A DNA stretch of 15,609 bases from NCBI GenBank assembly GCA_003243865.1, contig QHBQ01000520.1:1-15609 (forward strand), in the 5' to 3' direction. The translations under genes and the position numbers were made by a program. The DNA comes from Candidatus Chloroheliales bacterium. Lineage in GTDB: Bacteria; Chloroflexota; Chloroflexia; QHBQ01. Position 1 is the first letter of the stretch. Every line of letters starts with the position of its first letter. The notes under the pieces are model-generated. The model made no database searches, was not told the DNA's origin, and was given only the letters and a program-made list of their open reading frames with translations. Below are positions 1 to 14,959 of this stretch, piece by piece.

Positions 1-3000
1 AATCCACGACCCGATGTTGAGGGTACTGAAACCACCGTAACCGCATCTGGCGCTGACCTGAACCTGAGCTTCAATCCACGACCCGATGTTGAGGGTACTG
101 AAACGTAGCACCATGCGCTGGATCTCCAAAGTGAAGGCTTGCTTCAATCCACGACCCGATGTTGAGGGTACTGAAACGACTTGTACAACCGTTTCAGCGC
201 CACATTTCCGATGGTGCTTCAATCCACGACCCGATGTTGAGGGTACTGAAACTGGAATTGCTCATTGCCATTGCCGATCAGCCAGGTGCTTCAATCCACG
301 ACCCGATGTTGAGGGTACTGAAACCGTTGGCAGAGGGTGAACGAGTTGCCGGAGATGCCAGCTTCAATCCACGACCCGATGTTGAGGGTACTGAAACACG
401 CCCAATCCGCGCAAGCTGAACGAGCTACACGACAGCGCTTCAATCCACGACCCGATGTTGAGGGTACTGAAACTCGTATTCGATAACATTCAGAGCGAAA
501 GAGAAGCGAGCTTCAATCCACGACCCGATGTTGAGGGTACTGAAACAATCAGATGCTCCACCGCATACGTCGTAATCCAGGTGCTTCAATCCACGACCCG
601 ATGTTGAGGGTACTGAAACATACGCCACCGGCGTCGGCTCCGGCGGCCTGAAATACAGGCTTCAATCCACGACCCGATGTTGAGGGTACTGAAACTCCGA
701 ACATGATGAGCATTCGCAGACACGCCTTCCGCTTCAATCCACGACCCGATGTTGAGGGTACTGAAACAGTTTCGCCAACATTTTCTCTAGCGCACGCACC
801 CCCATGCTTCAATCCACGACCCGATGTTGAGGGTACTGAAACACCCTCACAGCACTCAATCCATGAAGATAGTCATGAGCTTCAATCCACGACCCGATGT
901 TGAGGGTACTGAAACCTCACCACCTTCCACCAGCAGCAGATGCCGAGGGTGCTTCAATCCACGACCCGATGTTGAGGGTACTGAAACGGTTGCCAGAATA
1001 AATACGCTCCAAAAACGCCAACCAGCTTCAATCCACGACCCGATGTTGAGGGTACTGAAACGCTCGACCTTTCCGCCTATCTGGATATTCAGTACATGCT
1101 TCAATCCACGACCCGATGTTGAGGGTACTGAAACTGCAGGTTGAAGCGCCTCTCCAACTCCACCCTTGAGGCTTCAATCCACGACCCGATGTTGAGGGTA
1201 CTGAAACATATACCCCTACCGCGAGGGCAAACACCGATAAGCTTCAATCCACGACCCGATGTTGAGGGTACTGAAACCTGGGCCAGCAGCCCCGCCGCCA
1301 GGATATTAGTTGGCGCGCTTCAATCCACGACCCGATGTTGAGGGTACTGAAACCTGAAGATGCACGGGGGCGGGATTGCCTCAGACTATGCGCTTCAATC
1401 CACGACCCGATGTTGAGGGTACTGAAACTGCCTAGGTCGGCAAGGATGTCGGTCAGCGGACGCTTCTGCTTCAATCCACGACCCGATGTTGAGGGTACTG
1501 AAACCCTCTTTCTGCGGCATTGCCGCACTTGTGTATGTGTAGCTTCAATCCACGACCCGATGTTGAGGGTACTGAAACCCCGCACGGCGCAGAGGAAGGC
1601 AAGGGCGTACCCGGCTTCAATCCACGACCCGATGTTGAGGGTACTGAAACAGCGCGACAAAGGTGCAAAATGGCTATCAGAACCCCAGGCTTCAATCCAC
1701 GACCCGATGTTGAGGGTACTGAAACTCGGATGAGCGGAAGATGAAGTGAACGCTGGCTTGCGTGCTTCAATCCACGACCCGATGTTGAGGGTACTGAAAC
1801 CAGTGGTAATGGCGGGCGATGCTACGATCCAGCCCAGCTTCAATCCACGACCCGATGTTGAGGGTACTGAAACACACCCCATCGCCCTTGCCGTACAGCG
1901 GCTTCAGCAGCTTCAATCCACGACCCGATGTTGAGGGTACTGAAACCCATATCTGCGCCGTTGGTTGCTGCTGGGGTTCGCTTGCTTCAATCCACGACCC
2001 GATGTTGAGGGTACTGAAACGCCCGCTGGCTGCCACTACGCGATTGCCAGCGGTTGGGCTTCAATCCACGACCCGATGTTGAGGGTACTGAAACTGATTG
2101 CATCATCAACTATGCTCATGCCAGGTTCTTCGCTTCAATCCACGACCCGATGTTGAGGGTACTGAAACACGGACTTGACCCCCTCCACCAGCAGAGGGAT
2201 TGCGCTTCAATCCACGACCCGATGTTGAGGGTACTGAAACCCCCTGATAACATCCTGTTCTGGCCTACCCACGATTGCTTCAATCCACGACCCGATGTTG
2301 AGGGTACTGAAACCTACTGGCGTAGAGACGAAACAGATGAGGTAACGCGGCTTCAATCCACGACCCGATGTTGAGGGTACTGAAACTGCGGCCAGCGGCA
2401 TAGTTGCGCGTGCCGACATCGTAGAGCTTCAATCCACGACCCGATGTTGAGGGTACTGAAACGACAGCCAGAAGGCAGACGCAGTGACCGGCGAACTGCT
2501 TCAATCCACGACCCGATGTTGAGGGTACTGAAACGCCACCGAGCAGATGCACATCGCGGCCTGCGAACTCAGCTTCAATCCACGACCCGATGTTGAGGGT
2601 ACTGAAACCTTCATTGACAATCGTACTCTCCCGCGCGGATACCCGCTTCAATCCACGACCCGATGTTGAGGGTACTGAAACACCGTCGCCGGGGTAATGG
2701 ATGACTATCTTGCTGATGGCTTCAATCCACGACCCGATGTTGAGGGTACTGAAACTTCAGCAGCAACGTTGCAGAGGCGAAAGCGCGATTTGAGCTTCAA
2801 TCCACGACCCGATGTTGAGGGTACTGAAACCCTTGCTTGATGAAAGACCTGCCGCCGCATACCCCCAGCTTCAATCCACGACCCGATGTTGAGGGTACTG
2901 AAACTGTTCGACAATCTTCACTGCCGTTTTGCTCATTCGAGCTTCAATCCACGACCCGATGTTGAGGGTACTGAAACGCGCACCTGGTGCCAGGTTAGCG

Positions 3001-3050
3001 CACGGCTGATGCGGCTTCAATCCACGACCCGATGTTGAGGGTACTGAAAC
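1..3050 (+). CRISPR. CRISPR array, 42 repeats (first truncated by window edge), 41 spacers
   Basis: A 37-nt direct repeat begins GCTTCAATCCACGACCC and ends GAGGGTACTGAAAC. Copies start at 68, 141, 216, 288, 361, 437, 510, 583, 659, 731 and so on, up to 3014-3050; positions 1-32 are the tail of a copy cut by the window edge. All full copies read as identical. The 41 spacers are 33-39 nt long, mostly 35-38, and none repeats another. The repeat's ACTGAAAC end matches the usual crRNA 5' handle, so transcription is probably on the + strand with the leader to the left, outside the window. The repeat has weak internal complementarity (ACCC with GGGT; terminal TTCA with TGAA). No cas gene is present, so the type is unassigned; repeat and spacer lengths fit type I or III systems. 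Open frames here are produced by the stop-poor repeat and are not genes. Confidence 0.99.
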
Positions 3051-3088
3051 TCTGCGCGGTGTGCAAGCAATATTGATAACCGAGCGGG

Positions 3089-3105
3089 GCTTCAATCCAC
3101 GACCC
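3089..3105 (+). repeat. Broken CRISPR half-repeat at array interruption
   Basis: The first 17 nt of the canonical repeat (GCTTCAATCCACGACCC) follow a normal-length 38-nt spacer (3051-3088). The sequence then diverges into a purine-rich stretch leading into the next gene. The missing right half of the repeat is not found at the far side of the inserted segment, so this is not a clean insertion that kept both halves. Confidence 0.9.
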
Positions 3106-3129
3106 AATGAAGCAGAAAGAAGAAGAGAA

Positions 3130-3567
3130 GTGAGGCTTGACGAGCGGGATCACAGGTCATTGGTGCTCTGGGCCACTGACTGCGCTGAGCATGTACTTCC
3201 ATACTTCGAGGAGATGTTCCCGGGAGACGACCGACCTCGGAAAGCTGTCGAAGCAGGGCGTGCCTGGGTGCGCGGTGAGATAACTTTGAGTGATGCGCGC
3301 GCCGCCGCATTTGCCGCCCACGCCTCCGCCCGCGACGCCGATCAAGCGGCTGCCCGTGCCGCCGCCCGCGCTGCCGGTCACGCCGCCGCAACTGCCCATG
3401 TTGTCGGTCACGCCACTCACGCTGCCGCCTATGCTGTCACTGCCGCCACCTATGCCGCCGTTTCCACCGACGCCGCCGCTGCCGCCACCAAGGAACGTGA
3501 TTGGCAATACCGACACCTTCCGGAGCACCTTCGGTCAGGAGCGTTTCTCGCCCGAGACGATAACTGA
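3130..3567 (+). CDS. Imm5-like putative immunity protein inside the CRISPR locus
   Basis: Encodes 145 aa from GTG at 3130, beginning MRLDERDHRSL, just after a purine-rich AAGAAGAG stretch that could serve as ribosome binding site. The N-terminal part (LVLWATDCAEHVLPYFEE, then DDRPRKAVEAGRAWVRGE) leads into an alanine/histidine-rich helical middle with repeated AAGHAA and AAY motifs. The end, around ERDWQYRHLPEHLR, is charged. This arrangement is how I remember the Imm5 family of predicted immunity proteins (polymorphic-toxin type), which are small, all-helical and alanine-rich. The same frame opens further upstream at 3061, but that stretch is CRISPR spacer and repeat. No toxin gene is adjacent, so the partner is unknown. 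Transcription may be read-through from the array. The low-complexity Ala/His composition limits certainty. The protein could instead be an unrelated helical protein, though the non-repetitive N- and C-terminal ends argue for a real gene. Confidence 0.62.
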   Translation: MRLDERDHRSLVLWATDCAEHVLPYFEEMFPGDDRPRKAVEAGRAWVRGEITLSDARAAAFAAHASARDADQAAARAAARAAGHAAATAHVVGHATHAAAYAVTAATYAAVSTDAAAAATKERDWQYRHLPEHLRSGAFLARDDN

Positions 3568-3584
3568 GGGCCTGTGTCGGCCCT
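3567..3584 (+). terminator. Short GC hairpin after the Imm5-like gene
   Basis: AGGGCC and GGCCCT form a 6-bp stem around the loop TGTGTC, starting at the last base of the gene's stop codon. No T-run follows, and the hairpin overlaps the first base pairs of the next CRISPR-like repeat. It is a weak terminator candidate and may be chance. Confidence 0.25.
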
Positions 3585-3987
3585 GCAATCTACTACCGGC
3601 TAATGAGGGGACTGAAACACCAACCACGCTTACCCACTCGTGTTACATTGCCGCCTGCAATCTACTACCGGCTAATGAGGGGACTGAAACTGGGTTTGGT
3701 GTCGGGGATGTTCTCGTCAACGAAAATGGGGCATCAATCTACTACCGGCTAATGAGGGTACTGAAACGATCACCGGCGCGGGCAACAACTATGCGTTCAG
3801 CCCCTTCAATCAACGACCCGCTAATGAGGGCACTGAAACAGCCTTAGCTCGATCAGTCTCGCGACCAGCGTGACCAGGCTTCAATACACGCCCCAATGTT
3901 AGGGGTACTGAAACGGGTTGAGCAGGTTCAGCGGGTGAGGACAGATGTACGCTTCAATCCACGACCCGATGTTGAGGGTACTGAAAC
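3582..3987 (+). CRISPR. Mini-array of six divergent CRISPR repeats, five spacers
   Basis: Six 37-nt units lie at 3582-3618, 3654-3690, 3731-3767, 3803-3839, 3878-3914 and 3951-3987, separated by spacers of 35, 40, 35, 38 and 36 nt. Every unit keeps the ACTGAAAC end. By hand alignment to the main-array repeat, mismatches are 9, 9, 7, 6, 5 and 0 from left to right. The first two units are identical to each other (CTACTACCGGCTAATGAGGG core), and the last is an exact canonical copy. Position is consistent with the trailer side of the locus, cut off from the main array by the Imm5-like gene. Repeat and spacer lengths are preserved, so units could still be processed if transcribed. Confidence 0.92.
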
Positions 3988-4096
3988 GGGCAGTCGGTAG
4001 CGTTGTTGGTCATCTCGCGGTGGCCGCGCGAGGTTACTGCAGTGGCGGCCGAGATGCTGTTTCAGAGCATGGCGGGTGAACAGGGTTAGCCTCTGC

Positions 4097-4126
4097 TTGC
4101 GTCGGCGAACTCTAGGGTGGTATAAT
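4097..4126 (+). promoter_or_regulatory. Probable promoter of the helicase-methylase-ATPase operon
   Basis: An exact -10 hexamer TATAAT lies at 4121-4126, with TTGCGT 18 nt upstream at 4097-4102 as a weaker -35. The expected start would fall about 40 nt before the helicase ATG at 4173, and a GGAAAGG ribosome binding site at 4156-4162 lies 10 nt upstream of that ATG. The stretch 3988-4096 between the last CRISPR repeat and this promoter contains no gene; it holds one small hairpin (CTCGCG at 4014-4019 paired with CGCGAG at 4027-4032), too weak to name. Confidence 0.6.
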
Positions 4127-4172
4127 CCCGCCACCGCATTTTGTCCCACCGCTTTGGAAAGGCATCCATTAC

Positions 4173-7100
4173 ATGGCTGAACTGAAGGATTTGCAGAAGG
4201 GCGCACAGGTGCGCGGCATCGTCCCTGATGTTGCTGTGACCATCGTGGATGCGACGCGGCTGGGTTCCGCTGCCGTCAACCTGACCTATCGCAACGAGCA
4301 GACCGGCGACATTGGCAGCCGGTTGGTGCTGGGCTTCGATGTTGGCGGGTTGACGGTGGAGCGCGACGACCGGCAGTGGGCCTTCGACGGCGACGGTGCC
4401 CGCTTCCGGCTGGCGCTGGAGGCGCGGCGCATCCAAATGGCCTTCATGTTCGACACTTTGCTGGGCATTACCACCTCCAAGGTTGACCCTCTGCCGCATC
4501 AGATTTCCGCCGTGTACGAGCGACTGCTCAAGCAGCAACCGCTGCGCTTCCTGCTTGCCGACGACCCCGGCGCGGGCAAGACCATCATGGCGGGCCTGCT
4601 GATTAAGGAACTGATGCTGCGCGGCGACCTCGAACGCTGCCTGATCGTCGTTCCGGCCAGCCTTGCCGACCAGTGGAAGGTGGAGATGCAGGATAAGTTT
4701 AACATTGACTTCCGCATCTTCGGTCGTAGCGAGATTGCCGACGCGCACGGTAACCCCTTTGCCAACGATAAGCTGGTCATCAGTCGGCTCGACCTGCTCA
4801 AGCAGGACCAGAACATGGAGCTGCTGCGCCAGAGCGATTGGGACCTTGTGGTGGTGGACGAGGCGCACAAGATGAGCGCTACCTACGACTCTGCTGGTGG
4901 CCGCCGTGAGACTGCCCGCTACAAGCTGGGCAAGCTGCTCGGCGAACACACCCGCCACCTGCTGCTGATGACCGCCACGCCGCATCGGGGCAAGGATGAG
5001 GACTTCCAACTGTTCATGGCCCTGCTCGACCCCGACCGCTTCGAGGGCAAGTACCGCGCGGAAGTGCATCGCAAGCAGGATGTAAGCGACATCATGCGCC
5101 GTCTGCTCAAAGAGGACATCCTCGACTTCGATGGTCGCCATCTGTTCCCGGAGAGGTTCGCGGACACGGTCAGCTACCAGCTGAGTCGCGGCGAGGATGG
5201 CAACCCCAGCGAGCATGAGCTTTACCGGCAGGTGACCAGCTATGTGCGTGAGCAGATGGGTCGGGCCGAGGCCATTGTGCGCGAGGCCGAGCAGCAGAAG
5301 GCCACCGGCGATGGTGACGGCAAGACCAGGGGCGCGGGCGAGGCGAAGCAGCGCAGCTTCGCGATTGGCTTCGCCCTCACCATCTTGCAGCGCCGCCTGG
5401 CCTCGTCGCCCAATGCCATCTACAGGTCGCTCAACCGCCGCCGCGAACGGTTGGAGAAGGCGCTGCGCGAAAAGCAGACCGACGGCTTCAATCTCACCGC
5501 CATTGCCTATCTGCCCGAAAACATGGATGAACTGGATGACCGCTCTGATGAGGATGCTGAAGTGGCCGAGCTGCTCTCCTCGGCTAGCGCGGCTACCAGC
5601 CTGCGCGAGCTGCAACAGGAGATTGACACCCTCACGCACCTGGAAAACATCGCCAAGACGCTGGTGGATAGCGGCAGCGACAGCAAGTGGCGCAGGCTGC
5701 GGCAGGTGTTGCTCGAAGAGCCGGAGATGCTCGACCCGCACGGCCAGCGCTTCAAGCTGGTCATCTTCACCGAACATCGTGACACCCTTACCTACCTCAG
5801 CGACAAGATTGGCGAACTGATGGGCAAGCAGGCGATTACCACCATCCACGGCAGTATGCGCCTGGAAGAACGACTTGCCAACCAGGACGAGTTCGTCAAC
5901 AACCCCGATGTTCGCTTCCTGGTCGCCACCGACGCGGCGGGCGAGGGCATCAACCTGCAACGCGCCGCCCATCTGATGGTCAACTACGATTTGCCCTGGA
6001 ACCCCAACCGCCTGGAGCAACGCTTTGGCCGCATCCACCGTTACGGCCAGACCGAAAAGTGCTTCTGCTGGAACCTGATTGCCAGCGACACCCGCGAGGG
6101 CCAGGTGTTCGAGACCATCCTGGGGAAGTTGAATGAGATGCGCGAGGCGCTAGGTGACCGCGTTTTCGATGTGCTTGGCACCCTGTTCGAGGAAGCGCCG
6201 CTGGACAAGCTGGTGATGGGCGCGGTGCTTAAGAGTGAGCAGGATGATGGCTATATGCAGCAGGTCATCGAACTGGTGGATAAGGAGCATTTCGTCAAGG
6301 CGCTGGAGGAGAACGCGCTCAACAAGGAAGACTTCGGCCCCGGCATCCTGGCCGACATCAAGGAACTGGTGCAGCGCGCCGAGGTCAGCCGCCTGGTGCC
6401 TTATTTCATCGCCTCGTTCTTCCTCGAGGCGTTCCGCAACCTGGGCGGCGAGGCGGTCGAGCGCGAGGCGGGCCGCTACGAGATTAAGTTTGTTCCCAAC
6501 GAATTGCGCGCCCGCGCCAGGCGCAACGGTCACCACATCGTCACCAAGTATGCCCGCATCTGCTTCGATAAGGCCGACATCGCCGCCCCCGGCCACAGCC
6601 GCGCTGCGCTCAAGGCTGAGTTCATCGCCCCCGGCCACTCGCTGCTCGATACCGTGGTCGAACTGCTGCTGGAGCGCGAGGGCAGCCTGCTGCGCGAGGG
6701 CACCATCCTGGTAGACCACCGCCCCGACGCCCCCGCCAACCCGCGGGTGATGTTCTGCGTGCGCCAGGATATTACCGACCAGACCGTCGCCACCGCCAGC
6801 GGCCCGCACGTGGTTTCCAGTGCGCTCAACTTCGTGGAGATTGATGCCGACGGCAACACCGAAGCCACCCGCCAGGGGCCATACTTGGACTATCGCCCGC
6901 TGCAGCCCCATGAAGTGGCGACGGCAGCGCAGATTCGCCACGATTGGCTCAGCCCCGATGTGGAGCAGATGGCGGTCAACTATGCGATCGGCCAACTGCT
7001 GCCCGCCCAGTTGCAGGAGGTCACTGCCGCCCGCACTGCCCTGCTCGCCAAGACTGAGCAGGCGGTGCGTTTGCGCCTGGAGCAGGAGATTGTCTACTGG

Positions 7101-7796
7101 GACTCGCGGGCGCAGCAGTTCAAGGAGCAGGAGCTGGCGGGCAAGCAGCCGAAGATGAACTCCGAAGCCGCCGCCCGCCGCCGCGACGAGCTACTCGCCC
7201 GCCTCGATAGCCGCATGGCGAAGCTGAAGCAGGAGCGCAATATCGGGGCGCAACTTCCATTGGTCGTCGCGGGCGCGCTGGTCATCCCCGCCGCGCTGCT
7301 GCCCGCCGCGCCCCAACCCGCTGCCGACGGCGAGGATGAGTTCCAACTGCCCTACGGCGGCGACCCCGCTGCCCGCCGCCGCATCGAGCAGCTTGCGATG
7401 GCCGCAGTGATGGAGGCGGAGCGGCGGATGGGCTTTGAGCCATGCGATGTGTCGGCCATCAATCGTGGCTTCGACATCGAATCGCGCTCACCGCGCGACG
7501 CATATGGCCGCCCCGCCGACCCCGACGTTCACCTCCGCTTCATCGAGGTCAAGGGCCGCGCCGCCGCCGCTGATGTCGTGACCATCACCCGCAACGAGTG
7601 CATCGCCGGGCTGAACAGCGAAAACGACTTCATCCTCGCCATCGCTCTAATCGCGGCAGACGAAGTGGTTGCCCTCTACTACGTCCCCGACCCCATCCAC
7701 CGCATCATGCCCGCCCAGCCCGACTGGTCGCTGATCTCGTTCGACGCTGACATCAAGCAGCTACTCGCTTATCCCGGAGTGCGAAAGTTGCTCTAA
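4173..7796 (+). CDS. SNF2-family helicase with C-terminal DUF3883 domain
   Basis: A 1207-aa superfamily 2 helicase, probably a DNA translocase of a phage-defence module. The motor motifs are intact and ordered: Walker A GAGKT at 133-137, DEAH at 229-232, TATPH at about 267-271, motif V DAAGEGINLQ from 587, and motif VI QRFGRIHRYGQ at 616-626. The spacing and the HRYGQ ending fit the SNF2/HepA (RapA-like) group. A charged, probably coiled-coil stretch covers about 945-1030. The C-terminal end carries a DUF3883-type domain: GFDIES around 1099-1104, FIEVKG at 1123-1128, then TRNEC. The spaced D and ExK look like a PD-(D/E)XK nuclease core, which is my inference. The start is chosen for GGAAAGG 10 nt upstream and the promoter at 4097-4126. 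It is first of three defence genes, 143 bp before the methylase. Similar helicases occur in DISARM and BREX operons, but no DrmB, PglZ or phospholipase D gene is seen here. Confidence 0.93.
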   Translation: MAELKDLQKGAQVRGIVPDVAVTIVDATRLGSAAVNLTYRNEQTGDIGSRLVLGFDVGGLTVERDDRQWAFDGDGARFRLALEARRIQMAFMFDTLLGITTSKVDPLPHQISAVYERLLKQQPLRFLLADDPGAGKTIMAGLLIKELMLRGDLERCLIVVPASLADQWKVEMQDKFNIDFRIFGRSEIADAHGNPFANDKLVISRLDLLKQDQNMELLRQSDWDLVVVDEAHKMSATYDSAGGRRETARYKLGKLLGEHTRHLLLMTATPHRGKDEDFQLFMALLDPDRFEGKYRAEVHRKQDVSDIMRRLLKEDILDFDGRHLFPERFADTVSYQLSRGEDGNPSEHELYRQVTSYVREQMGRAEAIVREAEQQKATGDGDGKTRGAGEAKQRSFAIGFALTILQRRLASSPNAIYRSLNRRRERLEKALREKQTDGFNLTAIAYLPENMDELDDRSDEDAEVAELLSSASAATSLRELQQEIDTLTHLENIAKTLVDSGSDSKWRRLRQVLLEEPEMLDPHGQRFKLVIFTEHRDTLTYLSDKIGELMGKQAITTIHGSMRLEERLANQDEFVNNPDVRFLVATDAAGEGINLQRAAHLMVNYDLPWNPNRLEQRFGRIHRYGQTEKCFCWNLIASDTREGQVFETILGKLNEMREALGDRVFDVLGTLFEEAPLDKLVMGAVLKSEQDDGYMQQVIELVDKEHFVKALEENALNKEDFGPGILADIKELVQRAEVSRLVPYFIASFFLEAFRNLGGEAVEREAGRYEIKFVPNELRARARRNGHHIVTKYARICFDKADIAAPGHSRAALKAEFIAPGHSLLDTVVELLLEREGSLLREGTILVDHRPDAPANPRVMFCVRQDITDQTVATASGPHVVSSALNFVEIDADGNTEATRQGPYLDYRPLQPHEVATAAQIRHDWLSPDVEQMAVNYAIGQLLPAQLQEVTAARTALLAKTEQAVRLRLEQEIVYWDSRAQQFKEQELAGKQPKMNSEAAARRRDELLARLDSRMAKLKQERNIGAQLPLVVAGALVIPAALLPAAPQPAADGEDEFQLPYGGDPAARRRIEQLAMAAVMEAERRMGFEPCDVSAINRGFDIESRSPRDAYGRPADPDVHLRFIEVKGRAAAADVVTITRNECIAGLNSENDFILAIALIAADEVVALYYVPDPIHRIMPAQPDWSLISFDADIKQLLAYPGVRKLL

Positions 7797-7803
7797 CCAC
7801 CAG

Positions 7804-7868
7804 GTTGATTAACCAAGCCCCCAGCGGGGTTTGGATGTTGATTAACTAAGCCCCCAGCGGGGGTTTGG
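7804..7868 (+). repeat. Two tandem hairpin repeats between helicase and methylase genes
   Basis: Two near-identical copies, 7804-7834 and 7837-7868, each begin GTTGATTAAC and contain a CCCCCAGCGGGG hairpin followed by TTTGG. They differ by one C/T change and one G in the stem. They resemble dispersed palindromic repeats seen in intergenic DNA of GC-rich bacteria. The GGGGGTTT side could weakly attenuate transcription between the genes, but there is no classical U-tract. Confidence 0.8.
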
Positions 7869-7939
7869 GGGAGAATGGTGAACCCCCCACCAAGCCAATC
7901 GTAACCGTCAACCCATTCTACAATCAGGAGACCCTGTCC

Positions 7940-10810
7940 ATGACCACCAAGAAACTCATCGAAACCAGCCTGCCGCTCGAGGCCATCAACATTGCTTCCG
8001 CCCGCGAGAAATCCATCCGTCACGGCCACCCCTCAACCCTGCACCTGTGGTTCGCCCGCCGCCCGCTGGCTGCCTGCCGCGCAGTGCTGTTCGGCCAACT
8101 GGTGGACGACCCCGGCAGCCTGCCCGATGAGTTTCCTACTGATGAAGATGTGCGCGGCGAACGCGAACGCCTCGCCAACATCATCACCGACCTGGTGCAG
8201 TGGGAGAACAGCAACAACCAGGAAGTGCTGCACAAGGCCCGCACCGAGATTGCCCGCAGCGTGGCCCGCGCTCATGGCGTGAAGTTGCCCACTGCGCCGA
8301 CTGCCGCGCAGGTGGCTGATGCGCTGCGCCAGTACGCTCCGCCGGTGCTGGACCCCTTCTGCGGCGGTGGCTCCATCCCACTGGAGGCGCAACGCCTCGG
8401 CCTCGAAGCGCACGGCTCCGACCTTAACCCGGTGGCGGTGCTGATTACCAAAGCGCTGATCGAGATCCCGCCCCGATTTGCCAATCGTCCGCCGGTGCAC
8501 CCCACCCGCGCTGCCGACCAGCGCACCATTGCCCATGACTGGCGTGGCGCACAAGGGCTGGCTGAAGATGTGCTCTATTACGGCGAGTGGATGCGCGACG
8601 AGGCGCAGAAGCGTATCGGCCACCTCTATCCCAAAGCCAAGCTGCCAAACGGTGGCGAGGCGACGGTGATTGCCTGGCTGTGGACGCGCATAGTTAAATG
8701 CCCCAACCCTGCCTGTGGGGCAATGATGCCGCTGGTGCGCTCGTTCGTGTTGTCCAGCAAGAAGGGCAAGGAGGCGTGGGCCGAACCGCAGATTGACCGC
8801 AGCCAGCCGCTGCCGCGCATCAGCTTCGCTATCCGCAATGGTGGCACACCGCCCAGCGGCACGGTCAATCGCAATGGTGCCACCTGCATTGTCTGTAACA
8901 CGCCGGTTACACTCAACCATATTCGCAATGAAGGTAAAGCGGGTCGAATGGGCGCACAGCTAGAGGCTATCGTCGCCGAGGGTAAGGGTGGACGTATATA
9001 CTTGCCACCTAATGATGAGCAAGTTGCTACCTCTGAGCAGGCTGTACCAACTTGGAAACCAAGTAATGAGCTAGTCGGCAAGGTTGCGGTCAGCGTTCCA
9101 CTCTACGGGATGCGAACCTTCGGCGACCTATTCACCCCGCGCCAGCTAGTCGCGCTCACCACCTTCAGCGACCTTGTGACCGAGGCGCGAGCGCAAGTGC
9201 TACGCGACGCTTCCGCCGCTGGGATGCACACCGCCGAGGTCTCGCTCGACGATGGCGGCAACGGTGCGGCAGCCTATGCCGATGCGGTGGCTACCTATTT
9301 GGCTTTCGCTGTCGATAAAGTCGCAGATCGTAACTCTGTAATTACTTCGTGGGCTAGTAATCGTGAGCACGCACGAAACACATTCGCAAGACAGGCGATA
9401 CCTATGGTTTGGGACTTTGCTGAAAGTAATACTTTTTCGGATTCAAGTGGCAACTATTTTGGTGGAATTGAGAGCATCTACAGTGCTCTTAATATAATGC
9501 CTACTGAGCGTGATGGTCTGGCAAAACAAATTGATGCTACAGTAATGAAGGAAGATAAACCACCTGTAATATCTACAGACCCACCATACTATGACAATAT
9601 AGGCTATGCAGACTTGGCCGACTTCTTTTACGTCTGGCTGCGCCGCTCTTTGTTTAACGTATACCCACGACTACTAAGCACAATGCTAGTACCTAAGAAG
9701 CAAGAACTAGTTGCTACGCCATACCGCTTTGAGGGTGATGCAACTGCTAGTGCAAAAGAGAAGGCAAGGAATTTCTTTGAGGTGGGTCTGCATAAAGTGT
9801 TCGCTCAAATGCAAAATCAGCAGGCTGCCGATTACCCTCTAGCTATTTACTACGCATTTAAGCAGGCGGAGAATGAAGATGAGGATGAGGATAATGACGA
9901 TTCTAAGGGTGATGTTATTGCATCTACTGGCTGGGAAACAATGCTAGAAGGTCTACTTAAGGCAGGTTTTCTAGTGACTGGTACATGGCCTATGAACACT
10001 GAATTGGGCAGGCGCATGGTTGGGCGAGGAGCCAACGCCCTCGCCTCCTCAATCGTGCTAGCCTGCCGCCCCCGCCCGGCGAACGCGCCGATGAGCACGC
10101 GCAAGGACTTCCTGCGCGCCCTGCGCCAGGAGTTGCCGGGCGAACTGAAGGTGCTGACCAGCGGGCGGGTTGCGCCGGTGGACTTGCAGCAGGCGGCCAT
10201 CGGCCCCGGCATGGCGGTCTACTCGCGCTACGCCCGCGTGCTGGAGCCGGATGGCAGCGCGATGAGCATCCGCACCGCCTTGCAGCAAATCAACGAGGTG
10301 ATCCAGACCTACTTCGCCGAGCGCGAGGGCGAACTGGATAGCGATACCCAGTTCTGCCTCACCTGGTACAAGCAGTACGGTACCATCGCCTCTCCCTACG
10401 GCGTGGCCGAAACCCTGAGCAAGGCTAAGAACGTCTCGATTGAGGCACTGGTGCGGGCAGGGCTGCTCAAGTCGGCGGGCGGCAAGGTGCAACTTTACCT
10501 CGCCAGCGCTGACGTATACAAGGGCGAATGGCAGCCGGGTGAGCAGCGCATGGTCAGCATCTGGGAGGCCACCCACCGGCTGGTCGCCGCGCACAGCAGT
10601 GGCGGCAATAAGGACGCCGCCCGCGTCGCGATGCGCCTCGGCGCGGTCGGCGAGCAAGCCCGCGACCTGGCCTACCAGCTCTACGTCATCGCCAACGACA
10701 AGGGCTGGGCGCAGGAAGCGCTGGGCTACAACAGCATGGTGGCCGAGTGGCCCGCCATCCGCGATGAAGCCAACAAGTTGGCAAGCCAGCCCACGCTGTT
10801 CGGCGTGTAA
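7940..10810 (+). CDS. DUF1156 Zn-ribbon adenine-specific DNA methylase
   Basis: A 956-aa predicted N6-adenine DNA methyltransferase, the likely self-marking enzyme of the module. The N-terminal residues (ETSLPLEAINIASAREKS, then HGHPSTLHLWFARRPLAACR) are the DUF1156 signature. Methylase motif I is DPFCGGGS at 138-145; catalytic motif IV is DPPY at 547-550, followed by YDNIGYADLADFFYVW. A zinc ribbon is suggested by C254, C259, C316 and C319. An acidic linker (ENEDEDEDNDD) starts at residue 644. I chose ATG 7940 because AGGAG lies 9 nt upstream (7926-7930) and the family signature begins immediately; the frame stays open upstream to 7865 but that part reads through repeats. Base composition is uneven: residues about 454-693 (9300-10020) are markedly AT-richer than either end, suggesting a recombined core. 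The family (COG1743 type) is known from BREX- and DISARM-related operons. Confidence 0.95.
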   Translation: MTTKKLIETSLPLEAINIASAREKSIRHGHPSTLHLWFARRPLAACRAVLFGQLVDDPGSLPDEFPTDEDVRGERERLANIITDLVQWENSNNQEVLHKARTEIARSVARAHGVKLPTAPTAAQVADALRQYAPPVLDPFCGGGSIPLEAQRLGLEAHGSDLNPVAVLITKALIEIPPRFANRPPVHPTRAADQRTIAHDWRGAQGLAEDVLYYGEWMRDEAQKRIGHLYPKAKLPNGGEATVIAWLWTRIVKCPNPACGAMMPLVRSFVLSSKKGKEAWAEPQIDRSQPLPRISFAIRNGGTPPSGTVNRNGATCIVCNTPVTLNHIRNEGKAGRMGAQLEAIVAEGKGGRIYLPPNDEQVATSEQAVPTWKPSNELVGKVAVSVPLYGMRTFGDLFTPRQLVALTTFSDLVTEARAQVLRDASAAGMHTAEVSLDDGGNGAAAYADAVATYLAFAVDKVADRNSVITSWASNREHARNTFARQAIPMVWDFAESNTFSDSSGNYFGGIESIYSALNIMPTERDGLAKQIDATVMKEDKPPVISTDPPYYDNIGYADLADFFYVWLRRSLFNVYPRLLSTMLVPKKQELVATPYRFEGDATASAKEKARNFFEVGLHKVFAQMQNQQAADYPLAIYYAFKQAENEDEDEDNDDSKGDVIASTGWETMLEGLLKAGFLVTGTWPMNTELGRRMVGRGANALASSIVLACRPRPANAPMSTRKDFLRALRQELPGELKVLTSGRVAPVDLQQAAIGPGMAVYSRYARVLEPDGSAMSIRTALQQINEVIQTYFAEREGELDSDTQFCLTWYKQYGTIASPYGVAETLSKAKNVSIEALVRAGLLKSAGGKVQLYLASADVYKGEWQPGEQRMVSIWEATHRLVAAHSSGGNKDAARVAMRLGAVGEQARDLAYQLYVIANDKGWAQEALGYNSMVAEWPAIRDEANKLASQPTLFGV

Positions 10811-10817
10811 CCAAATC

Positions 10818-11089
10818 CGTAGGGGCGCATCGCCGTGCGCCCCGGTCAAGGGCGGCATCGGGGCGGGCAACATCGGGGCGGGCGGCGACGGGGCAGGCAA
10901 CATCGGTGCGGTGCGGCAACGGGGCAGGCAACATCGGGGCGGGCGGCGACCCGCCCCTACGGGGGATGCAATCACCGTGCGCCCTGGCCAGGGCGAAACA
11001 ACGTAGGGGCGCATCGCCGTGCGCCCCGGTCAAATCGTAGGGGCGCATCGCCGCGCGCCCCGGCCAAGGCGCATCGCCGTGCGCCCCCA
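10818..11089 (+). repeat. REP palindrome cluster upstream of the RAYT gene
   Basis: Four copies of a roughly 32-bp REP unit starting CGTAGGGGCGCATCGCC lie at 10818-10849, 11002-11033, 11036-11067 and 11068-11087 (the last lacks its 5' end). Each folds as GGGGCGCA paired with TGCGCCCC around a 6-nt loop. Between them lies a G-rich stretch of short tandem motifs (GGCAACATCGGGGC) ending in a second palindrome at 10936-10960 (GGGGCGGG with CCCGCCCC). The cluster begins only 8 bp after the methylase stop codon. Confidence 0.9.
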
Positions 11090-11107
11090 CCACAAGGGAA
11101 CAAACCG

Positions 11108-11623
11108 ATGAGCAGATACGACCCCGAACGTCATCACCGCCACACAATACGCTGGCAGCAATGGGATTACCGTCGCGTCGGCGCGTATTTCGTCACCATT
11201 GTCAGCTACGGACGTGAACCGCTGTTCGGCACTATCACAAACGGCCAGGTAAGCCTATCGCCGTATGGTGAGATTGTGCAGGCCGAGTGGCTTAGTTCAC
11301 CTTCGGCCCGCTCCAATATCGAACTCGATGAGTTCATCATAATGCCTAACCATCTTCATGGTATCATATGGATAACCGAACAGGGAGATGAGGGCAGGAG
11401 CACGATGGCCTGGTCGCTAGGTGCGATGGTAGGCGGGTTCAAGGGCGCGGCCACCAAGCGCATCAACGAATTGCGTGGAACGCCCCGTGTACCTGTCTGG
11501 CAGCGTAACTACTACGAGCGCGTCATCCGCGATGAAAGAGAACTGGCCGCCACCCAACAATACATCATCAACAATCCGGCCCAATGGGATGAAGATGACG
11601 AAAACCCATCCAAACATCCGTAG
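11108..11623 (+). CDS. REP-associated tyrosine transposase (RAYT, Y1/HUH family)
   Basis: A 171-aa single-strand DNA transposase-like protein of the IS200-related RAYT group, which recognises and cleaves REP palindromes. The metal-binding HUH motif is His82-Leu-His84 within IIMPNHLHG. The catalytic tyrosine is Tyr135 or Tyr136 in WQRNYYERVI, followed by the usual helix ending YIINNP. The N-terminal YFVTIVSYGREPLFG is also typical. The start at ATG 11108 is chosen because AAGGG lies 9 nt upstream (11094-11098) and the family signature begins there; the longer open frame upstream is only REP sequence. The stop codon TAG (11621-11623) lies inside a REP unit beginning at 11619. The gene is flanked by REPs on both sides, as expected for RAYT loci, and sits between the methylase and ATPase genes, splitting the defence operon. 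All active-site residues look intact. Confidence 0.95.
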   Translation: MSRYDPERHHRHTIRWQQWDYRRVGAYFVTIVSYGREPLFGTITNGQVSLSPYGEIVQAEWLSSPSARSNIELDEFIIMPNHLHGIIWITEQGDEGRSTMAWSLGAMVGGFKGAATKRINELRGTPRVPVWQRNYYERVIRDERELAATQQYIINNPAQWDEDDENPSKHP

Positions 11624-11946
11624 GGGTGCATCGCCGTGCGTCCCGGTCAAGGGCGGCAATGGGGCGGCATCGGGGTGGGAGGCATCGGGGCGGGCAGCGA
11701 CCCGCCCCTACGGGGATGCAATAGCCGTGCGCCCCGGCCAAGACGAACCAACGTAGGGGCGCATCGCCGTGCGCCCCGGCCAAATCGTAGGGGCACAACG
11801 GTGCGGGCAACATCGGGGCGGGCGGCGACCCGCCCCTACGGGGATGCAATCATCGTACACCCCGGCCAAAACCAACCGCCGTAGGGGCGCATCGCCGTGC
11901 GCCCCGGCCAAAACCAACCGCCGTAGGGGCGCATCGCCGTGCGCCC
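11619..11946 (+). repeat. REP palindrome cluster downstream of the RAYT gene
   Basis: Further copies of the GTAGGGGCGCATCGCC-type unit lie at 11619-11650, 11752-11783, 11880-11911 and 11922-11946, with a truncated copy at 11786-11795. The companion GGGGCGGG/CCCGCCCC palindrome recurs at 11687-11711 (with base changes) and 11815-11839, each followed by TACGGGGATGCAAT. The segment from the RAYT stop to the ATPase start (11624-11971) holds nothing else except a ribosome binding site (GGAG 11963-11966). Confidence 0.9.
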
Positions 11947-11971
11947 TGCCACCCAATCAATAGGAGCGATC

Positions 11972-14827
11972 ATGACCAACCTGGTTCCCTGGCGCGAAGT
12001 CGTCCAGCCCCATCCTGATGTGCAATCAGGCCGCTACCAGCAGGCCGAGTTCGCCGCCGACCTGTCGCAGGTACGCGCCGGTAATGCCACCAGCGAGTAT
12101 CAGGATGCCGCCGAGTTCTTCCAGCGCACCTACCTGACCGCCGGTATCCGCCGCCTGCTGATCGCCGCAATCAAGCGGCTGCGTGGCGAGGGCGAAGCGC
12201 CGGTGGTGCAACTGAAGACCGCGTTCGGCGGCGGCAAGACCCACACCATGCTCGCCCTCTACCACCTGCTGCGCTCGCCGGAGCAGTCGGCCAGTGTGCC
12301 AGCGGTGCGCCAGCTAATCGAGGATGCGGGCGGGATGCCACCCGCTGCCCGCGTCGCGGTCATCGTCGGCACCAGCTTCAGCCCCAACGAGCCTTCGCAG
12401 ACGCTGGCGCAGTATGGCACCGAGGTGCACACCCTCTGGGGCGAGATTGCCGCGCAACTGGATGGGCTGGCGGGTTACAAGCTAGTCGCCCAGTCCGATG
12501 CCGCCGCCACCTACGCTGCCGCTGACGTGCTGCGCGCCCTGTTCAAGCAGGCTGGCCCCTCGGTCATCTTGATAGATGAGCTAATCGCCTTCATGCGCGC
12601 TCTATCCGGCAGCGCCAAAGCGGGCAGCGCGGGTAGCTTCAGCAACAATCTCAGCTTCATCCAGGCGCTGACCGAGGCGGTGCGCACCAGCCCCAATGCG
12701 ATGCTGATTGCCTCCATCCCTGAATCCGAGGAGGAGCTAGGTGGGCAGGAGGGTCGCGTTGCGCTCAACCGCGTGGAGAAGGTGTTTGGCCGCATCGAGG
12801 ATGTGTGGCAGCCGGTCGAGGTGCAAGAGTCGTTCGAGGTGGTGCGCCGCCGTCTGTTCGGCCCGATTGCCAATGAGGCCGCCCGCGATGCTGCCGTCGC
12901 CGCCTTCGCTGAAACCTACCGCAGCAACCCCAGCGACTTCCCCAACGAGTGCCGCGAGAAGGCATACGAGCAGCGGATGCGCAGCAGCTACCCCATCCAT
13001 CCCGAAGTGTTCGACCGGCTCTACGAAGACTGGGCCAGCCTGGAGAAGTTCCAACGCACCCGCGGCGTGCTGCGCCTGCTCGCCAAGGTTATCCACCATC
13101 TGTGGCGAAGCGATGACCGCAGCCTGATGCTGCTCCCTGGCAGCATCCCGGTGGAGCAGAGCGATGTGCGCGGCGAGCTACTGCGCTACATCGGCGAACA
13201 GTGGAACAGCGTCATAGACGCGGACGTAAAGGATGCCAGTCAGGAGCTAGACCGCCAATCACCCCGTTTCGCCAACGTTCACGCCGCGCAGCGCATCGCT
13301 CGCACAATTCTGCTCGGCTCGGCTCCCGCCCGCAACAAGAAGGGCATCGAGGGTGTGCGTATCAAGCTCGGCGTGATGCAGCCCAGCGATGAGGGCGGTA
13401 TCGCCGTCTACGCTGATGCGTTGCAGCAAATGGGCAGCAAGTTTGCCTACCTCTACGGCACGGGCAGCAGCTACTGGTTCGAGGTGCAGCCCAACCTCAA
13501 CCGTACTGTCGCTGATCGTAGCAGCCGGATGCGCAGTGGTGTGCTGGCCGAGCTAGAGCAGCGCATCAAGCGCTGGAACACCCGCGACAGCAACTTCGCT
13601 GGCGTCCACCTCGCCCCTGCTGGCAGCGCCGATGTGCCAGACGAAGACCGCGCCCGTCTGGTGGTACTCTCGCCCGCCCATTTGTTCACCAGCCGCGACA
13701 GCGAGAGCCGCGAGAACAGCGACGCGATTGCCGAGGCTAAGAACATCCTGGAGAACCGCGGCAGCAGCCCGCGCCGCTATCGTAATATGCTCATCTTCCT
13801 CGCCGCTGACGCCAACGACTATAATGCGCTCGAAACTGAGGCCAGCCGCTACCTGGCCTGGAAGTCTATCTGCGACGATAGCCTCGGCCTCAACCTCGAC
13901 AAGGCCCAAATCAAGCAGGCCAATGAAGCCCGCGACCAATCGAGCAGCAAGCTGGACAGCCAGTTGGAGGATACTTACAAGTGGGTCATTTTCCCCACCC
14001 AGGAAGGCACCGCCCCCATCGAGTGGGAAGCGAAGAAGCTCAGTGGTTTTAGCGGCACAGCAGTGCGCCGCGCCTTTAGCGCCGCCGAGCGCGACGGCCT
14101 GCTAATCAGCAAGTGGTCGCCCATCGGCCTGGACCAGGAGTTCAATCGCTATCTCTGGCGGCAGAACGAGCGCGAACAAAAGCCCAACATTTCAGTCAAG
14201 ACCCTGTGGCAGCAACTCGCCACCTACGTTTATCTGCCCCGACTCAAATCGCCGGAAGTGCTGGTCGAGGTTATCCGCAGTGGCGCGGCCAACCAGGACT
14301 TCTTCGGCTACGCGATGGGCTACGATGCCGTCAGCGACAAGTATAAGGGCCTCTACTTTGGCCGCCTGCCCGCCAGCGTGACGATTGATGACTACAGCGT
14401 ACTGGTTGACCATGAAGTGGCCCGTCGCCTAACCGCGCCCGCCAGTGTCCCCGCCGAGGGTGTAAGCGCGGGCGGCAACGGCAGCGGCGGCATAGTGCAG
14501 CCGGTCGCGGGCAGCAGCATTGCTTCCGGCAGCGGCACTAACCTATCTGTCCACGAGCAACCCGCCGCCTATCCCACCTCGGCTACTACTCCCGCCCCGC
14601 CGCGCAAACCAACCCACTTCAGTGGGCGGGTCGAGCTACATCCGCTGATGCTCGTCTCCTCCGCTGGGCGCATCACCGAGGAGATCCTGCAGCGGATGCC
14701 CGGAGCGAATATCACTGTTCACCTCGACATCGAAGCTGAGTTGCCCGAAGGTGCCGACGAGCAGACCCAGCGTACCGTGATGGAGAACGCCAACGTACTT
14801 AAGTTCAAGGATGCCGACTTCTCGTAG
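11972..14827 (+). CDS. DUF499 P-loop ATPase of a BREX/Pgl-like defence module
   Basis: A 951-aa predicted AAA-type ATPase of the DUF499 family, distantly related to BrxC/PglY of BREX. Walker A is FGGGKTHT at 85-92, with the three glycines and KTH usual in this group. Walker B is ILIDEL, with Asp202 and Glu203. The ARERDQ-like middle part is long and helical. The C-terminal region changes after a low-complexity Gly/Ser/Ala/Pro linker (about residues 825-885) into a conserved-looking module starting HFSGRVELHPLML and ending NANVLKFKDADFS, which I recognise from other DUF499 proteins. The start at ATG 11972 has GGAG 5 nt upstream; an upstream in-frame extension from 11939 is REP-derived. It is probably the energy-coupling partner of the helicase and methylase. 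Expression from the 4097-4126 promoter would have to cross about 1.1 kb of RAYT/REP sequence, so a separate promoter may exist, though I see none clearly. Confidence 0.93.
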   Translation: MTNLVPWREVVQPHPDVQSGRYQQAEFAADLSQVRAGNATSEYQDAAEFFQRTYLTAGIRRLLIAAIKRLRGEGEAPVVQLKTAFGGGKTHTMLALYHLLRSPEQSASVPAVRQLIEDAGGMPPAARVAVIVGTSFSPNEPSQTLAQYGTEVHTLWGEIAAQLDGLAGYKLVAQSDAAATYAAADVLRALFKQAGPSVILIDELIAFMRALSGSAKAGSAGSFSNNLSFIQALTEAVRTSPNAMLIASIPESEEELGGQEGRVALNRVEKVFGRIEDVWQPVEVQESFEVVRRRLFGPIANEAARDAAVAAFAETYRSNPSDFPNECREKAYEQRMRSSYPIHPEVFDRLYEDWASLEKFQRTRGVLRLLAKVIHHLWRSDDRSLMLLPGSIPVEQSDVRGELLRYIGEQWNSVIDADVKDASQELDRQSPRFANVHAAQRIARTILLGSAPARNKKGIEGVRIKLGVMQPSDEGGIAVYADALQQMGSKFAYLYGTGSSYWFEVQPNLNRTVADRSSRMRSGVLAELEQRIKRWNTRDSNFAGVHLAPAGSADVPDEDRARLVVLSPAHLFTSRDSESRENSDAIAEAKNILENRGSSPRRYRNMLIFLAADANDYNALETEASRYLAWKSICDDSLGLNLDKAQIKQANEARDQSSSKLDSQLEDTYKWVIFPTQEGTAPIEWEAKKLSGFSGTAVRRAFSAAERDGLLISKWSPIGLDQEFNRYLWRQNEREQKPNISVKTLWQQLATYVYLPRLKSPEVLVEVIRSGAANQDFFGYAMGYDAVSDKYKGLYFGRLPASVTIDDYSVLVDHEVARRLTAPASVPAEGVSAGGNGSGGIVQPVAGSSIASGSGTNLSVHEQPAAYPTSATTPAPPRKPTHFSGRVELHPLMLVSSAGRITEEILQRMPGANITVHLDIEAELPEGADEQTQRTVMENANVLKFKDADFS

Positions 14828-14840
14828 CCGAAGTTCAGCA

Positions 14841-14959
14841 GGGCGAACAGCACTTCGAGGGCGAACAGCAATTCGCCCCTACGGAAATATGCCCGATACG
14901 GGCGCAAGCAGGGCGAACAGCGATTCGCCCCTACGGAAATATGCCCGATACGGGCGCAA
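14841..14959 (+). repeat. Tandem 49-bp palindromic repeats downstream of the ATPase gene
   Basis: Two 49-bp copies, 14859-14907 and 14911-14959 (period 52), begin GGGCGAACAGC and end GATACGGGCGCAA, differing at one base. A partial copy starts at 14841. Each holds two hairpins: GGGCGAA with TTCGCCC, and GCCCG with CGGGC. They begin 13 bp after the ATPase stop and may act as mRNA 3' stabilisers or attenuators. Nothing recognisable lies in 14960-15035. Confidence 0.88.

Follow-up and report, generated by a model that had tools for sequence, protein, structure and literature searches.

An orphan Imm5_like gene, probably acquired horizontally, between what appears to be the trailer end of one CRISPR array and a putative remnant of a related one

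Immunity proteins of the Imm5 family (PF14423) of polymorphic toxin systems are mostly α-helical, their partners being DYW deaminases and CdiAC, and genes for polyimmunity proteins usually have no linked toxin, according to the sections of Zhang et al. 2012 (PMC3482391) that deal with them. The deaminase toxin SsdA has been described in complex with its immunity protein SsdAI (7JTU), and the account of this complex gives SsdAI an exclusively α-helical structure (PMC7901873). Foreign DNA within an array of clustered regularly interspaced short palindromic repeats (CRISPR) has a precedent, found among open-licence papers, in locus F of Sulfolobus solfataricus, where according to a review two repeats are separated by a plasmid-like fragment of 899 bp; the review calls the CRISPR loci of that organism relatively intractable to transposition. 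The window analysed here is the whole stretch of 15,609 bp from contig QHBQ01000520.1 of a Candidatus Chloroheliales bacterium. It opens within a CRISPR repeat and holds, after a half repeat that ends a long array, a small gene of the Imm5_like family, beyond which CRISPR-like repeats resume. We consider it probable that this is an orphan gene that arrived horizontally and now rests between the trailer end of the array and what is left of a related one, decayed and without a leader.

The non-array segment (3106-3581) is 476 bp long and contains one complete open reading frame (ORF), just as an earlier reading of the letters without database searches (the sequence-only reading) had described. 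The 145-residue product matches the Pfam family Imm5_like (PF21805) with 146.1 bits against a cut-off of 25 (E = 6.7e-43), covering profile positions 3-128 of 129. The product is therefore a member of this family of putative immunity proteins, and a match at this E-value excludes chance coding. The sequence-only reading had named Imm5 (PF14423) instead. This profile overlaps residues 15-92 but scores just 18.4 bits with a cut-off of 25, so that the immunity-type assignment stands while the family first proposed does not. The boundary between the two families is gradual here, since one of three close relatives tested (P0108) just reaches the PF14423 cut-off with 25.0 bits; some close relatives carry a PF14423 annotation. 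No literature naming PF14423 was found among open-licence papers.

The gene is complete, as its GTG start agrees with the starts of homologues: 13 of 21 aligned sequences begin at the residue of GTG 3130 and the other eight begin six residues earlier. A protein search found 2230 homologues at E ≤ 0.001 among 7996 candidates scored, and identity to relatives reaches 83% over 97% of the query. Spurious coding had been expected to show as a lack of any family match and of homologues elsewhere, and both are present. Homology supports an immunity-type identity at the family level. What sets the gene apart within PF21805 is its setting in a CRISPR locus, with no toxin recognised beside it. With Imm5 of polymorphic toxin systems the product has the predominance of α-helix in common, whereas it falls under that family's cut-off.

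A structure model built with a 58-sequence alignment is confident and all-helical, with seven helices (predicted local distance difference test, pLDDT, 94.1; predicted template modelling score, pTM, 0.89). An earlier alignment-free model was poor (pTM 0.47) and was not used. The best match among solved structures is chain B of 7JTU, which from its helical match would be SsdAI. SsdAI is longer (193 residues), has a cognate toxin and is 11% identical to the window product. In the library of predicted viral structures (BFVD) the best match, and the only one at E ≤ 0.001, is A0A6J5RNF9, an Imm-5-like protein of 209 residues from an uncultured phage (E = 2.9e-4, TM score 0.75 of the query, 25% identity). 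The modelled fold suggests an immunity type and serves as a lead rather than as proof. A possible SsdAI-like fold would give a structural lead for a large family that is named just 'putative immunity protein'.

Among the matches listed, relatives of the gene span many bacterial and archaeal phyla. The best full-length DNA match among the loci fetched comes from a Verrucomicrobia metagenome-assembled genome (MAG; 83% identity, aligned to window 3134-3568), and copies in the haloarchaeon Haladaptatus halobius (80%, window 3111-3560) and in a Rubrobacter MAG (76%, window 3122-3557) are also close. Outside the gene this DNA similarity extends over no more than about 20 bp, on the upstream side. 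Compared with the haloarchaeal copy, synonymous divergence is 0.46 and the ratio of nonsynonymous to synonymous divergence is 0.35. From such sequence comparisons we infer a fairly recent passage between domains, via whatever intermediates, and the family appears to be under purifying selection. The locus thereby documents a cross-domain travelling immunity-like gene at the dead end of an array. Within the class Chloroflexia, 35 of 158 genomes have a match. A tree of 38 of the 58 alignment rows, with 20 proteins from the protein search left out, requires 23 changes of phylum label (minimum 15; shuffled mean 26.0), a value as low as in one of 200 shuffles. Phyla are thus mixed to a wide extent, if incompletely; as only four of its 35 inner branches are starred, the tree shows this mixing and not a donor.

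Phages carry members of the family, as evidenced by the BFVD match and by three PHROGs families annotated as unknown, two of them below E 0.001. A tblastn search of phage records returned no matches. Nine plasmid records match, none covering 80% of the query, and three relatives were found among 45 candidate viral stretches. One of these three, a truncated Imm5_like copy with 85% DNA identity, lies in a viral contig (L076:1977-2237), beside neighbours that we take to be host-type genes and a phage-type integrase.

The CRISPR side of the locus is defined by a 37-nt repeat, R (GCTTCAATCCACGACCCGATGTTGAGGGTACTGAAAC), with 42 exact copies, 41 of them starting at positions 68-3014 and one at 3951. 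The window start truncates a further copy, of which 32 nt remain from base 1. The near-identical repeats and the even spacers of the main part identify it as a CRISPR array. The plus strand is the likely CRISPR RNA (crRNA) strand, judged from the ACTGAAAC end of the repeat, which we take to resemble a crRNA 5′ handle, and from a sub-threshold match to Rfam CRISPR-DR32. At 3089 the match to R extends for 17 nt and ends at 3105, which bears out the earlier statement that the array stops in mid-repeat. A comparison is offered by the array of G095, a genome of the class Chloroflexia whose repeat matches R with one difference, the only match among 158 genomes of the class. One spacer past its last full repeat, this array ends in a repeat truncated after about its first eight bases, and position 3105 therefore reads as the true trailer end of the main array. 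Terminal repeats of CRISPR arrays can be altered or truncated, as set out in the relevant part of PMC8047081. Here too the leader-distal repeat is changed at its 3′ end, but in contrast to the cases covered there more repeats come after a gene.

An assembly chimera, in which array DNA was joined to unrelated DNA at a repeat, is improbable. Assemblers fail at repeats, and the window itself begins within one. However, only 17 nt of R are present at the left junction, which is shorter than usual assembly words. The 5′ leader of the gene follows directly, and beyond the gene come related repeats of unchanged orientation.

Within positions 3089-3113, TGAAGC of the leader can pair with the six bases that open the half repeat (-6.1 kcal/mol, equalled by two of 200 shuffles); this pairing does not extend over the purine-rich start region.

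The repeats do resume at 3582, as the sequence-only reading stated, but as divergent and hybrid units and not as a plain continuation of the R array. The first of them, V (CCTGCAATCTACTACCGGCTAATGAGGGGACTGAAAC), differs from R at nine of 37 positions. No leader precedes the units beyond the gene. The most plausible reading of these units in their graded order (V, V, hybrid, hybrid, R-like, R) is a decayed, leaderless remnant of a related array in which the repeat changed stepwise. Calculated fold energies are -1.7 kcal/mol for V, -7.4 for R and -8.2 for the decayed copy at 3878, which is weak evidence given that 31 of 200 shuffles match R's own value. As a separate observation, the gradient from V through hybrids to R (3582-3987) could record the stepwise evolution of a repeat copied at each acquisition.

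Simple decay does not account for the exact R at 3951, and import by recombination is possible. The gene and the V-type units could have been brought in as one block from another CRISPR locus through recombination at repeats, which is a variant of arrival at a landing site and overlaps with it in probability; in itself it is rather unlikely. Block import would explain the hybrid repeats and the presence of R on both sides (3014 and 3951), as well as the two identical V copies and the two R/V hybrids in graded order. Against this, no donor was found: the combined R/V pattern (at most two mismatches) occurs in none of 400 Chloroflexota genomes, a sample without G095. The left junction is a half repeat, and the matching other half is not present beyond the gene. 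The junctions at 3106 and 3581 show neither a target-site duplication nor inverted ends, at lengths of 3-11 nt, that would indicate an insertion sequence or a miniature inverted-repeat transposable element, and the longest direct word common to the surroundings of the junctions is 5 nt. The earlier idea of a cargo carried by CRISPR-mediated recombination is possible but unproven. The insert in Sulfolobus locus F is alike in that foreign DNA sits between repeats of one array, and on that precedent inserts between repeats are rare but known; genes embedded there had been called uncommon by the sequence-only reading. As the review describes it, that insert is a plasmid fragment and no half repeat is mentioned, whereas here one intact immunity-like gene is present.

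A toxin partner was looked for in the window and around relatives. In the window the scan covered five other ORFs, small ones being outside it; none showed a recognisable toxin domain, and two gave no match at all. For the relatives, it covered 43 loci hand-picked from 75, with all but one (a long L023 ORF) of their 84 neighbours. These 83 neighbours are mixed, and no toxin family was found among the 25 of 133 Pfam families listed. A stranded antitoxin, the first of the explanations offered by the sequence-only reading, fits these results best.

CRISPR arrays near the gene were sought with a detector that requires three exact 20-mers 45-110 bp apart. It is positive on the window and on locus L090, and short or degenerate arrays would escape it. 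The loci checked were 78 of relatives (75 from genomes, taken from the matches listed, and three viral) and 30 from Chloroflexia; L139 is the same place as L033, which leaves 107 distinct loci of 108. Many are cut by contig ends, and the Chloroflexia loci reach at most 1.5 kb on each side. Among the matches listed, no array was detectable near the gene in these loci, and the search for other CRISPR loci with the same gene, proposed as a check, came out negative. One signal among the 78 loci, in L018, turned out on reading to be a low-complexity repeat and was dropped.

Since only 24 bp precede the start codon, the gene would either stay silent or depend on transcription that continues past the array, and such read-through would be the simplest source of any expression. 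A tighter connection can be considered, in which the pre-crRNA promoter reads the gene, the repeat nuclease excises it between the flanking repeats and its level tracks array activity. The gene lies on the strand of the repeat orientation with just those 24 bp upstream, and a search of 2900-4200 gave no sigma-70-like site, a negative of little weight because shuffles average 0.5 such sites. Co-transcription with the pre-crRNA, as proposed earlier, is a hypothesis that agrees with the anatomy. About 42 repeat units lie upstream within the window, V folds poorly (a weak test), and the gene-array pairing was not seen again in the 108 loci sampled. Such a tie is accordingly doubtful. A stronger version treats the gene as a giant spacer slot, driven by the array promoter and released by nuclease cuts in the last full repeat before it and the first V behind it, which would couple protein immunity against the toxins of rivals to the activity of CRISPR memory; this we regard as very unlikely. 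Expression from the array, should it occur, would make this a natural example of a protein-coding gene carried within a CRISPR locus.

Degenerate repeats adjoining a gene of toxin-immunity type also call to mind CreTA modules, in which case a degenerate repeat unit beside the gene would guide Cas proteins to repress it. Where the source describes them, creA genes mostly have two divergent repeats and the CreT toxins are RNAs, not immunity proteins. The spacers gave no match to 3089-3620 beyond 12 dinucleotide-shuffled controls. For a CreA-type seed (10 nt, positions 1-5 and 7-11) there is no full match in 3089-3600; one match of nine in ten was found, with a chance mean of 1.9, and 174 of 200 single-base shuffles gave as many. 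A CreTA-like arrangement is not supported, is largely refuted by the missing complementarity between guide and gene region, and has hardly any probability left.

For the reading that we favour, a gene that landed beside the array, the following course can be proposed. The gene would have moved in horizontally and would have come to rest between the trailer end of the CRISPR array and an older remnant. Its α-helical product may bind and block a deaminase-type toxin delivered by a competitor, by analogy with SsdAI and SsdA, and would act without a linked toxin gene. The CRISPR setting would be an accident of the landing site and not a functional partnership; genes of this type usually give protection from the toxins of rivals, and this one is not known to have a part in CRISPR defence. 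The gene is most likely there by chance, in an arrangement that is locally unusual and mechanistically ordinary. Several observations weigh against this proposal. On the structural side, no match in the PDB was obtained at Foldseek E 0.001, the structural Z score lies within the range often reached by helical models by chance, and a sequence link between the product and SsdAI was looked for without success. PF14423, the family with published toxin partners, scores below its cut-off. A search for DYW deaminases was positive in none of 40 genomes, and is uninformative as the control was also found nowhere. The phylum label is slightly clustered on the tree, so that descent has some part beside transfer. 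An intact frame with flanks of just 24 and 14 bp could indicate that the gene is kept for some use. Finally, an exact R at 3951 past decayed units means that R-type repeats extend beyond the gene, which an array end followed by other DNA leaves unexplained. The coordinates of the features are collected in Table 1.

Table 1. Repeats, spacer, gene and flanking segments of the locus, in window coordinates.
Feature	Position	Strand	Remarks
Main CRISPR array	1..3050	+	41 exact R and one copy truncated at the window edge; spacers 33-39 nt; Rfam CRISPR-DR32 match on +, below gathering score
Last main-array spacer	3051..3088	+	38 nt
Half repeat	3089..3105	+	First 17 nt of R; reads as 3′-truncated terminal repeat; compare L090 near 282
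Purine-rich 5′ leader of the gene	3106..3129	+	Partly common to Rubrobacter (L002) and Haladaptatus (L001), by eye
Imm5_like gene	3130..3567	+	GTG start 3130, TGA stop 3567; 145 residues; intact
Stop codon to V copy 1	3568..3581	+	14 bp; with the first bases of V a possible GC-rich hairpin, 14 of 200 shuffles folding equally
V copy 1	3582..3618	+	
V copy 2	3654..3690	+	Identical to copy 1
Hybrid repeat	3731..3767	+	V-like middle, R-like ends
Hybrid repeat	3803..3839	+	R and V positions mixed
R-like decayed repeat	3878..3914	+	Five private changes
Exact R	3951..3987	+	Final unit before non-array DNA

A GC-rich interspersed repeat is common to the window and G095 and is missing from seven other genomes tested. 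Together with the like CRISPR repeat this suggests kinship between the host and G095. No Imm5_like gene was found in G095. Cas1 of G095 lies on two short contigs, on which a simple pattern for the R-type repeat found no copy, and HmaB of the window has just a short weak match in that genome.

Directly downstream of the array remnant, positions 4173-14827 hold an HmaABC-type defence system consisting of a helicase, a DUF1156 methylase and a DUF499 ATPase (PADLOC HmaA, HmaB and HmaC). Related NCBIfam antiphage models match in this region, under their cut-offs. Between hmaB and hmaC (10811-11938) several GC-rich palindromic repeats (GTAGGGGCGCATCGCCGTGCGCCC and variants), present with one mismatch in G095, surround an ORF. 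Pfam gave no match for this ORF, the inner part of which presumably resembles a transposase associated with repetitive extragenic palindromes (REP). After hmaC, positions 14858-14959 hold two tandem copies of a 50-nt unit, nearly perfect at 98% identity.
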